From positions 1 to 45,679 of the forward strand of contig JAGLLT010000028.1 of NCBI GenBank assembly GCA_023140385.1: a stretch of DNA of 45,679 nt. The letters run 5' to 3'. The notes under the pieces are model-generated. The model did not search any database, was not told the DNA's origin, and saw only the letters and a list, made by a program, of their open reading frames with translations. The first letter of the stretch is position 1; the number at the start of each line of letters is the position of its first letter. Positions 20,649 through 24,386 of this stretch are shown in pieces. Made by a program: the position numbers and the translations under genes. Origin of the DNA: Candidatus Omnitrophota bacterium. GTDB lineage: Bacteria > Omnitrophota > Gorgyraeia > JAGLLT01.

Positions 20649-22376
20649 TTAGTTTATATAATTTAACTCTGCTTCGGTTACGCGCAGTACCTCATCAATG
20701 GTGGTTACGCCCTCTATAACCTTATCCCAGCCATCTTCTCTCAAGGTTTTCATACCGAGCTTGACCGCTTCTTCTTTAATGACCTCGGTGGAGGTTCGCT
20801 GAAGAATCAACCTCTTTATCCGGTCATAAACTAAAAGCAGTTCGTATATTCCCGTTCTACCTTTATAACCTGTATGCATACACTTTTCACAACCTTTTCC
20901 TTTATAAAAAGTGCTGTTCTTAAGCCCTCTTTTTTTAAGCGCCGACTTAAAACCAATCTCATCCAGAAAAACTTCCTCCGGACGATAGCTCTCTTTGCAT
21001 TTTGAACAAATAACCCTCACCAGCCTTTGAGCCAAAACCGCGCTTATAGATGAAGATACTAAAAAGGGTTCTATGCCCATATCAATTAAGCGGGTAATCG
21101 CCCCGGCGGCGTCATTGGTGTGCAGGGTGCTAAAAACCAGATGCCCGGTTAAGGCGGAACGTATGGCAATTTCAGCCGTTTCAGAATCTCTTATCTCTCC
21201 CACCATAATAATATCGGGATCCATTCTTAAGATAGAACGCAATCCCCTGGCAAAAGTTAAATTTATTTTCGGCTTGATTTGTATCTGATTGATGCCCCTC
21301 AGCTGATATTCAATAGGGTCTTCCACGGTTATTATTTTTTTGTCGTCAGAGTTAATCCTGCTTAAAGAAGCGTAAAGGGTGGTAGTCTTACCGGAGCCGG
21401 TCGGCCCCGTAACCAAAATAATACCGTGCGGCCTGCTTATTAAGGAAACGATCTGCTTCAGATAAAAGTCCGCCATACCCAGCTGGCTAAGGCCAAACAT
21501 AATTTTACCCTTAGGCAGTATTCTTATATCAATATTTTCTCCAAAGACGGTAGGGATAGTAGCTACCCGTAAATCAATTTCTCCTTCCGGTAGATTCATC
21601 TTTATCCGTCCATCCTGGGGCAAGCGTTTTTCAGCAATATTTAAATCCGCCATAATCTTTATTCTTGAAATAATGGCTGATTGAAAGTGCCTGATGCTTT
21701 GAGGAGTTGTAATTTTATGGAGAACGCCGTCAATGCGGTACCTTATTCTCAACTCATCCTCAAAGGGCTCAAAGTGAATATCCGTCGCCCTGTCGTTGTA
21801 GGCCTCGGCAATAATCTGATTTACGAATTTAATAACCGAAGCGTCTTCTGCCAGCTCTTCTTTGTTCTCAACCTTATCGGCCTTTAAGGCCTCTTGCTCA
21901 AGCTCATCCGCGGTCGCCTCAACCATCTTCTCCATCGTATCCGCGCCTACGCCATAATGCTTCCTGATGGCCTTTACAATCTCATCTTCACTGCTTACAG
22001 CCACCTTTACTTCACAGGCCAGTAGAAGCTTAAGGTCATCCAGCGTATGAATGTCCAGGGGGTCGGCCATAGCTATGCTTAAAAGGTTGTCATCCAAGCT
22101 GAGGGGAATAAGTTTATTGAGAGAGGCAAATTTTACAGGTATTTTAGTTATTACAGACCGGTCTATCTCTATGCCGGAAAGTTTAAGATAGGGTATGCCC
22201 AATTGAAAGGCGAGCATTTTTAGAACATCCTCTTCAGTAGCAAAACCAAGCTCTACTAAAATCCGGCCTATACGTTGATTAGCCTCTTTTAGCTTGCTTA
22301 CAGCCAACTGCAGCTGGCTATCTTCTATAATACCTTCCTTGAGCAGGAGTTCTCCTAATAACTTGTTTTGCCTCAT
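20649..22376 (-). CDS. gspE: T2SS assembly ATPase GspE
   Basis: 575 aa; N-terminal MshEN-type domain, Walker A GPTGSGKTTTLYASL, GEIRDSETAEIAIRSALTGHLVFSTLHTNDA, tetracysteine CSKC...CEKC motif. Confidence 0.97.
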   Translation of the reverse strand: MRQNKLLGELLLKEGIIEDSQLQLAVSKLKEANQRIGRILVELGFATEEDVLKMLAFQLGIPYLKLSGIEIDRSVITKIPVKFASLNKLIPLSLDDNLLSIAMADPLDIHTLDDLKLLLACEVKVAVSSEDEIVKAIRKHYGVGADTMEKMVEATADELEQEALKADKVENKEELAEDASVIKFVNQIIAEAYNDRATDIHFEPFEDELRIRYRIDGVLHKITTPQSIRHFQSAIISRIKIMADLNIAEKRLPQDGRIKMNLPEGEIDLRVATIPTVFGENIDIRILPKGKIMFGLSQLGMADFYLKQIVSLISRPHGIILVTGPTGSGKTTTLYASLSRINSDDKKIITVEDPIEYQLRGINQIQIKPKINLTFARGLRSILRMDPDIIMVGEIRDSETAEIAIRSALTGHLVFSTLHTNDAAGAITRLIDMGIEPFLVSSSISAVLAQRLVRVICSKCKESYRPEEVFLDEIGFKSALKKRGLKNSTFYKGKGCEKCMHTGYKGRTGIYELLLVYDRIKRLILQRTSTEVIKEEAVKLGMKTLREDGWDKVIEGVTTIDEVLRVTEAELNYIN

Positions 22377-22468
22377 AGTATTTATTATACACCTCGATTA
22401 GATAACATTCAAGCGGCAAAAAAAGAGGAAAACTGCATTGGCAGGCGGCTACGAGGGACAACTAAATT

Positions 22469-22548
22469 ACAAAAAGACCGCCTTAGATGAGGAAATCCAA
22501 CTTACAATATTAAAGGAGGTGTAAGTTGTTTTATAACGGCCTTTCTGT
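22469..22548 (-). promoter_or_regulatory. Structured 3'-UTR element, copy A (nested stem-loops)
   Basis: Minus-strand RNA: outer 12-bp stem ACAGAAAGGCCG/CGGUCUUUUUGU (all paired counting G-U), inner 8-bp stem CAACUUAC/GUAAGUUG with 15-nt loop ACCUCCUUUAAUAUU; 79/80 identical to copy B. Confidence 0.65.
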
Positions 22549-22569
22549 ATTTTTTGAATCAAAAGAGAA

Positions 22570-23184
22570 TTAGCTTCTCTTTTTTCTACCTATTCCGAAC
22601 AAACCAAGTAAGCCACTACCTAACAGTAACATACTGGCCGGCTCCGGAACCGCATCAAGGCTAGCATCATCCCACTTGCCGCACTGGTCTGCATCCTGCC
22701 CAAACAAAACCTGAACTTTGTTTGCATTACCAGGAGACGTACCGGTAAGGGTATGTTTAACCCAGCTATCCGTAAGACTAATGTTCTGGGAATTGTCAGC
22801 GATGTAGATGCCATCTTGATACCATGCAAGTGTCATGTAATAATCACCAACTACCTCGCCGCCATCCCTCTTTGCCCAAATAGTAAAGTTGTATGGTGTG
22901 CTTCCTGTTATACCACTAGTAACGTCCTGGTATGCTTCACCGTTTTTATTGCCACCCCAGTCCATTACTCCGATACCCCATGAGCCGGTTGGGCGTTCAG
23001 CAAAATCCGGCCAGCCTTCGCGCCTTGCGTCATCTGACTCCACCCAGATATCAGCATCTTGATCGCCACCAATACCCGCAGTTTCAAAATCAGGATTACC
23101 GAGAAGATTAGCATCAGCAATTGATGGTAGGGCAACAAAGCCTAATACAGCGATAATCAATGTTGCTAAATACAATTTTTTCAT
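22570..23184 (-). CDS. PEP-CTERM sorting-domain protein (small secreted jelly-roll-like)
   Basis: 204 aa; signal peptide; C-terminus VPEPASMLLLGSGLLGLFGIGRKKRS; SD AAAAGGAGGTG upstream. Confidence 0.9.
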   Translation of the reverse strand: MKKLYLATLIIAVLGFVALPSIADANLLGNPDFETAGIGGDQDADIWVESDDARREGWPDFAERPTGSWGIGVMDWGGNKNGEAYQDVTSGITGSTPYNFTIWAKRDGGEVVGDYYMTLAWYQDGIYIADNSQNISLTDSWVKHTLTGTSPGNANKVQVLFGQDADQCGKWDDASLDAVPEPASMLLLGSGLLGLFGIGRKKRS

Positions 23185-23288
23185 TTAATTCACCTCCTTT
23201 TTTATTACGCTATGTTACAAAAAATAGATTTTCTTCTAAAGATTACTCACAAAAATTACGCACATGGGTAACGTGCTGGATAAAAAAT

Positions 23289-23368
23289 ACAGAAAGACCG
23301 CCTTAGATGAGGAAATCCAACTTACAATATTAAAGGAGGTGTAAGTTGTTTTATAACGGCCTTTCTGT
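23289..23368 (-). promoter_or_regulatory. Structured 3'-UTR element, copy B
   Basis: Minus-strand RNA: outer stem ACAGAAAGGCCG/CGGUCUUUCUGU, inner stem CAACUUAC/GUAAGUUG; followed on the minus strand by AUUUUUUAU. Same position relative to its PEP-CTERM gene as copy A. Confidence 0.65.
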
Positions 23369-23391
23369 AATTTTTTTAAATCAAAAGAGAA

Positions 23392-23979
23392 TTAGCTTCT
23401 CTTTTTTCTACCTATTCCGAACAAACCAAGTAAGCCACTACCTAACAGTATCATACTGGCCGGCTCAGGAATCGCGTCAAATTCAACGTCGTCAAATTTA
23501 CCGCAAGTTACACCTGTACCAACTGTACCAAAGCTGACCAAAACGCTGTCAGCACCACCAGGTACTATGCCTGCCATCGTGAACTGCTCATGAGCGGAGT
23601 CACCCATATTGATAACCTGGCTATCTGAATCAAATTCACTTCCGCTAGCATACCAGGCAAGATTCATAGTATAATCAGTGTTGGGATCGTCGCCATAGCT
23701 CCAAAGAGAGTAAGTGTAAGCAAGGCCTCCGCTAATGTCGGAAACCATCTGAGAACAATCACCTGCTTGTATGTCCCACGGGTCTGATATGGACACGAGA
23801 TTGTTTCCTGTCTTAGCATCAGCTCCACCCCAGGCTTGTACTTTGGTGCTACCGGTTAATGTCCAGGCTGCGCCTCCGTCTTCAAAGCTCCAGTCGTCAA
23901 GCATATTTGCCTGAGCAGACGGTACTATGAGAAACAGACCTAACGCGATAATCAATGTTGCTAAATACAATTTTTTCAT
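23392..23979 (-). CDS. PEP-CTERM sorting-domain protein, paralogue of 22570..23184
   Basis: 195 aa; signal peptide nearly identical to paralogue (MKKLYLATLIIA); C-terminus IPEPASMILLGSGLLGLFGIGRKKRS. Confidence 0.9.
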   Translation of the reverse strand: MKKLYLATLIIALGLFLIVPSAQANMLDDWSFEDGGAAWTLTGSTKVQAWGGADAKTGNNLVSISDPWDIQAGDCSQMVSDISGGLAYTYSLWSYGDDPNTDYTMNLAWYASGSEFDSDSQVINMGDSAHEQFTMAGIVPGGADSVLVSFGTVGTGVTCGKFDDVEFDAIPEPASMILLGSGLLGLFGIGRKKRS

Positions 23980-24386
23980 TTAATTCACCTCCTTTTTAAT
24001 TACGTTATGTTACAAAACTTTGTTTTATTACCAGTTCTGAAGTTACGCATATGTGTGATGAACTGAATAAAAAATATTTGGTTGAGTTAAAAAGATTGTC
24101 TTGATAAGAAATTGGATTTCGAAGTATTACCTTGGCTGGTTCTGCTAATTTATTGCTTGCTTTGATTGGCAATTTAATAACTCCTGTTTTACGCTACTAC
24201 TTTGGAGATTTTAATTTTGTTAAGCAAACGTGCATGTGTTTCCATAATACCCGCTATTCACCACTTTGTCAAGAATAATCTTTTGCTTTTTTTAAGGAAT
24301 ATATTGCGTGACAAACCGCATCGAAATGTACACTGTATATAGTGTATCTTAATATTGGAAGTCTGTAGAGTGTGGAGATTTAATCC

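Follow-up and report, generated by a model that had tools for sequence, protein, structure and literature searches.

The window, by which we mean the whole 45,679-nt stretch of DNA analysed, comes from an uncultured Omnitrophota bacterium and holds two tandem genes for PEP-CTERM surface proteins, each followed by a hairpin whose loop is complementary to the Shine-Dalgarno (SD) sequences in front of both genes. This raises the question of whether the 3' untranslated region (3'UTR) of a PEP-CTERM mRNA could reach back to the ribosome-binding site of its own mRNA, or to that of the neighbouring paralogue, and limit its translation.

A nested hairpin with an anti-SD loop follows both PEP-CTERM genes

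Both genes end, about 20-30 nt past the stop codon, in a copy of the same repeat unit (Table 1). The predicted fold of the minus (sense) strand consists of a 15-bp outer stem, a 9-bp inner stem and asymmetric internal loops, capped in both copies by a 13-nt apical loop, CCUCCUUUAAUAU. Folding z-scores were -4.6 and -7.2 for the sense strand and weaker, -2.0 and -3.9, for the plus strand. The sequence CACCUCCUUU is the exact complement, over 10 nt, of AAAGGAGGUG, the SD of gene 1 and of gene 2. It is made up of 8 loop nucleotides, CCUCCUUU, and the last two bases of the stem (C-G and A-U), and 8 of its 10 nt should thus be accessible inside the predicted 13-nt loop. A first-pass annotation of the window had drawn attention to this match; its coordinates, its sequence and its complementarity to both SDs were all reproduced, except that two stem bases are used instead of the one closing base described there.

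Table 1. Features of the PEP-CTERM locus, with positions counted from the first nucleotide of the window
Feature	Position	Strand	Description
gspE/pilB-type ATPase, downstream gene	20649..22376	-	start region matches the loop over 6 nt only (GAGGUG)
Copy A of the 3'UTR element, 3' of PEP-CTERM gene 2	22464..22555	-	92-nt repeat unit
Copy A outer stem	22535-22549 with 22468-22482	-	
Copy A inner stem	22520-22528 with 22498-22506	-	
Copy A apical loop	22507-22519	-	
Anti-SD CACCUCCUUU of copy A	22512..22521	-	8 loop nt + 2 stem nt
PEP-CTERM gene 2	22570..23184	-	204 aa, signal peptide, C-terminal VPEPASMLLLGSGLLGLFGIGRKKRS; PF07589 E 9e-7
SD AAAGGAGGUG of PEP-CTERM gene 2	23191..23200	-	
Copy B of the 3'UTR element, 3' of PEP-CTERM gene 1 and 5' of gene 2	23284..23375	-	97% identity to copy A
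Anti-SD CACCUCCUUU of copy B	23332..23341	-	
PEP-CTERM gene 1	23392..23979	-	195 aa, tandem paralogue; PF07589 E 6e-6
SD AAAGGAGGUG of PEP-CTERM gene 1	23986..23995	-	

At this locus the gene was duplicated in tandem together with its UTRs, and the repeat extends over the hairpin and the leader as well as the coding-sequence ends. Since copies A and B both belong to this one duplication and are 97% identical, they were counted as a single event. No further copies were found elsewhere in G000, the genome that holds the window, and as it contains only the tandem pair, a mobile or dispersed repeat was ruled out. An attC site or integron cassette was set aside on inspection by eye. A search of Rfam release 15 with the window region and 12 related loci gave nothing at threshold, the top weak match being SR6_antitoxin with 25 bits against a gathering score of 55.

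The internal loop of the elements in G000 and in its congener G001 holds another conserved motif that is left unpaired, AUUUCCUCAU (window positions 22483-22497 and 23303-23317, minus strand; L025 positions 2154-2163). In G003 the motif recurs next to an ACACCUC loop, 3' of a further PEP-CTERM gene (C64; 3'UTR of L149). Its reading as an anti-start-codon, directed at AUGAGGAAAU, was rejected because the motif is missing from the G003 homologue of the element, and a search among the G000 genes for a combined SD plus AUGAGGAAA target gave no convincing case.

The loop is kept more strictly than the stems

Homologous elements were located just 3' of PEP-CTERM stop codons in G001, from the same genus, and in G003 (Candidatus Kappaea frigidicola, phylum Omnitrophota), from the same family. 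A first covariance model, built from the two window copies and the G001 homologue, retrieved the fourth copy, in G003, with an E value of 4e-7, and the refined model returned no accepted copy outside the window's family among 386 genomes of the class. Weak model matches in two genomes (G060 and G133) fell within long ORFs or bordered on them and were discarded, and BLASTN matches to the element in 197 relatives were coincidental only, two of them being ordinary SDs read backwards.

Conservation was assessed on these four copies from three species, two copies being a recent duplicate and the MAGs being incomplete. Of the cells in the four-copy alignment, 97.7% pair, compared to 35-52% in slid controls, and four pairs are altered on both sides. 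One-sided changes in the inner stem all turn A-U or U-A into G-U or U-G, which are paired on the sense RNA only, and the sense fold was better than the antisense fold in every copy. The longest invariant run, present in 4 of 4 copies, is CACCUCCU, while the remaining loop and the stems vary. The earlier reading had been staked on the loop, to be given up if homologues kept the stems and lost it, and the opposite pattern was found, with CACCUCCU invariant and the stems covarying. We are highly confident that the element is real and conserved, as a sense-strand RNA in the 3'UTR that carries an anti-SD loop.

Complementarity to the own SD is unusual, and the 10-nt match alone is not

The 10-mer CACCUCCUUU has four sites in the window, where 0.12 were expected, and eight across the 1.5-Mb assembly, half of these at the PEP-CTERM locus. 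The remaining four include the apparent SDs of two unrelated genes, and none of them looks like a 16S 3' end. Taken alone, the 10-nt match is weak evidence. When any 3'UTR was compared with any PEP-CTERM start region, a match of this length was reached in 43 of 60 shuffled sets, in agreement with the caveat of the first-pass annotation that some match is expected by chance. The match of the loop to its own gene is, by contrast, unusual, as just 477 of 200,000 shuffled loops reached it in G000. The same shuffle gave 622 of 200,000 in G001 and 651 of 200,000 in G003, although the three tests are not independent since the loops are homologous.

In the same mRNA, the SD is perfectly complementary to the 3'UTR motif over 10 nt in the window, 9 nt in G001 and 8 nt in G003. 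Every element-bearing gene carries AGGAGGTG in its own start region, although this sequence is rare, with only 45 sites in G000, 28 in G001 and 22 in G003. Across the 22 PEP-CTERM genes of the window's family, CACCUCC loops accompanied 4 of 5 genes with a GGAGGTG SD and 0 of 17 without one (p = 0.0007, or 0.003 with the tandem pair counted once). Loop and SD, whose covariation had been proposed as a check, co-occur within the family but do not covary base by base: beyond CACCUCCU, the loops do not track their own SDs. SDs of the form GG[AG]GGT(G) were commoner in PEP-CTERM genes than in neighbouring genes in families f1, f4 and f35, with GG[AG]GGT found in 22 of 33 PEP-CTERM genes versus 2 of 65 neighbours in f35; such strong SDs may simply reflect high expression.

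The duplex between loop and SD in the window has an energy of -16.8 kcal/mol for the own gene and for the sister alike, opening costs excluded. Some 7-10 kcal/mol is spent on opening the loop and the SD, which leaves net pairing scores of -9.7 for gene 1 and -7.0 for gene 2; several unrelated genes equal or beat these scores.

Loops in a second family fit a sister gene best

A comparison with G006, a genome of the same class but another family, was made after the idea had arisen, as was the search for C-rich loops described below. Four PEP-CTERM 3'UTR hairpins of G006 have CUCUUCACCCC in common, in one case (L131) on an unrelated stem. This 11-mer has six exact sites in G006, of which four are in the hairpin 3'UTRs, one is in the start region of the PEP-CTERM gene C84 (L128) and one is in an unassigned hairpin. 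Three of the four loops showed 15-16 nt of perfect complementarity to the SD/start region of C84, and all four loops fitted C84 better than any other of the 92 start regions tested (-23 to -35 kcal/mol). Among the shuffled sets, none reached a match of 16 nt and one reached 15; the longest match between a 3'UTR and a start region thus exceeded every shuffle in G006, whereas in G000 it did not. The genes that carry the loops have GGAGGUG as their SD, a poorer fit to these loops than C84. As the G006 loops fit a sister far better than their own gene, the cross-regulatory branch is favoured by this genome.

The four hairpins (L129, L121, L118 and L131) lie about 50-180 nt past the PEP-CTERM stop codons. 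A lone hairpin with a CUCUUCACCCC strand was also seen near position 1500 of L155 (G006:C72:17718), on the strand opposite to the flanking ORFs and with no recognised PEP-CTERM neighbour.

A putative riboregulator that masks PEP-CTERM SDs

In the mechanism that we propose, the long outer and short inner stems would display the invariant CACCUCCU loop in the PEP-CTERM 3'UTR of one Omnitrophota family, and the loop would pair with the extended SD (AGGAGGUG; AAAGGAGGUG in the window) of the same mRNA and of the tandem sister, either in cis or from one molecule to another. Binding of the 30S subunit to the paired SD would be blocked, and the duplex might be open to an RNase, such that more PEP-CTERM mRNA would damp translation of its own or the sister message. 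Pairing in the cell, repression, the direction of the effect and any signal behind it are inferred, and we consider the chances about even that the 3'UTR is a riboregulator repressing translation by masking the SDs of its own and sister PEP-CTERM mRNAs. Because, before opening costs, the loop fits its own SD and that of the sister equally well in G000, feedback and cross-regulation (cis versus trans) are inseparable there.

A related but different possibility is that the 3'UTR gives rise to a trans regulator, either the element alone or the mRNA 3' end, which acts mainly on other PEP-CTERM genes or other genes and only to a minor degree on its own. G006 fits this well: its loops pair best with the sister C84 (15-16 nt in three of four, duplexes of -31 to -35 kcal/mol), more PEP-CTERM start regions are among the next-best targets, the own SD is not favoured, and C84 itself ends in a plain hairpin. 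The window agrees to the extent that own and sister SDs are identical as targets. We nevertheless find such a regulator unlikely, given that a matching SD occurs within the same gene in all three species of the window's family and that a scan limited to the sigma-70 consensus saw no promoter-like site beside the element from which it could be transcribed independently. Taken together, masking of own and sister SDs and a mainly trans action make PEP-CTERM SDs the most likely target of the element. We give a similarly low probability to the hairpin being a transcription end or mRNA stabiliser, with the CCUCC loop as a bystander or as the site of a protein that favours C-rich loops. The stems are strong, copy B is followed by UUUUUU, and many other Omnitrophota PEP-CTERM 3'UTRs likewise end in strong hairpins, but the U-tract is missing after the other three of the four copies (copy A, G001 and G003), a scan for intrinsic terminators called none there, and conservation is higher in the loop than in the stems, the reverse of what a plain terminator would show. 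A protein-binding loop keeps a share of this low probability.

Control of the next gene by a leader-type element, i.e., of gene 2 by copy B and of gspE by copy A, appears very improbable. Copy B does precede the SD of gene 2 on the strand that they share, gspE has the GAGGUG, and AUGAGG fits the CCUCAU of the internal loop. The downstream gene, however, varies by species (PEP-CTERM, gspE, lipoprotein-like or an unrelated secreted protein), whereas a PEP-CTERM gene precedes the element in every case; CCUCAU, moreover, is missing in G003, and no G000 gene offers a convincing combined target. There remains the plus strand, on which AAAGGAGGTG could be the true SD of a small ORF and the anti-SD its shadow. 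In the window, AAAGGAGGTGTAAGTTG is indeed followed by a TTG-started frame of 15-63 aa, but the start codon is lost in G001 and G003, and in all copies both the wobble pairs and the folding energies point to the minus strand. The probability of this reading is negligible, and the small ORF was ruled out by its non-conservation.

The riboregulator could also be one part of a wider network, in which Omnitrophota PEP-CTERM mRNAs would silence themselves and each other through their 3'UTR tails, freely changing stems presenting C-rich loops that fit the GGAGGUG or GGGGGUG SDs that mark PEP-CTERM genes. We regard this extension as tentative and rather doubtful.

Relation to known SD-masking RNAs

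Native bacterial control of an SD by a 3'UTR is known from few worked cases, of which icaR is the standard. In the Staphylococcus aureus icaR mRNA, a UCCCCUG motif in the 3'UTR pairs with UAGGGGG at its own SD, and experiments showed that this pairing affects translation and RNase III cleavage, with action in cis or in trans proposed (PMC3868564). This precedent for pairing between a 3'-UTR and an SD in the 5'-UTR had been quoted correctly in the first-pass annotation. The PEP-CTERM genes resemble icaR in having a 3'UTR motif complementary to their own SD (CACCUCCUUU with AAAGGAGGUG). They differ in that the motif forms the apical loop of a nested hairpin, itself conserved and duplicated together with its gene, and in that the element is kept across species, in another phylum and on surface-protein genes, where its repressive role is putative. 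The principle would then be icaR-like: masking of an SD by a 3'UTR is known, and a conserved hairpin-loop version on PEP-CTERM genes would be new.

RsaE and FsrA are sRNAs with UCCC loops. The Listeria LhrC sRNAs act through C-rich loops on the SD of lapB, a surface adhesin mRNA (PMC4132741). With LhrC, RsaE and FsrA, the PEP-CTERM elements share C-rich loops aimed at SDs and the presence of several copies with related loops. With LhrC and RsaE, they also share complementarity to the SDs of other mRNAs, here the sister in the window and the 15-16 nt matches of the G006 loops to C84. Unlike LhrC, a free sRNA with its own genes, the PEP-CTERM element starts about 20-30 nt past the stop codon of a coding gene.

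A literature search for PEP-CTERM or exosortase together with post-transcriptional control gave nothing on point among the papers searched. If the proposed mechanism is true, it would be a first indication that the PEP-CTERM/exosortase system is controlled post-transcriptionally, and structured, conserved 3'UTR-SD control in a paralogous surface-protein family would represent a mechanism that has been selected for and spread by gene duplication.

Other hairpins in PEP-CTERM 3'UTRs

C-rich loops were modestly enriched in PEP-CTERM 3'UTRs of the families that had prompted the idea, with patterns picked post hoc, and no enrichment was detected outside families f1, f4 and f35. The claim of C-rich loops across the class is therefore not established.

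Several further structures were noted in these 3'UTRs. In family f35, PEP-CTERM 3'UTR hairpins at six loci (L203, L207, L212, L217, L200 and L193) share UCUCAUCCCCCA as an invariant loop, carried by either of two outer stems. In five genomes, the complement GGGGGAUGAG is also found across the start of one conserved gene (MSEKRKFMRFD...), an observation of doubtful significance; as a pairing of the loop UCUCAUCCCCC with complementary start regions, this conserved gene start was set aside, chance being judged likely. Six other loci of the family (L196, L204, L208, L210, L039 and L192) have a second conserved PEP-CTERM 3'UTR structure, AAAGGGGGU...CACCCCCUUU around GCUCCCUCACCCGAAAAUAG, for which Rfam gave no match in the one copy scanned (L204). 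In G000 itself, a repeated hairpin, GUCCCACCUCGUAGGUGGGAC, lies between PEP-CTERM genes of L136 (G000:C26), near gene ends at ~14.9 and ~15.8 kb. Finally, two more structures are kept between genomes after PEP-CTERM clusters, one in L178/L184 (G013 and G047) and one in L179/L188 (G053 and G040), with repeated GGCGCC or CCCCC/GGGGG arms that may form alternative hairpins.
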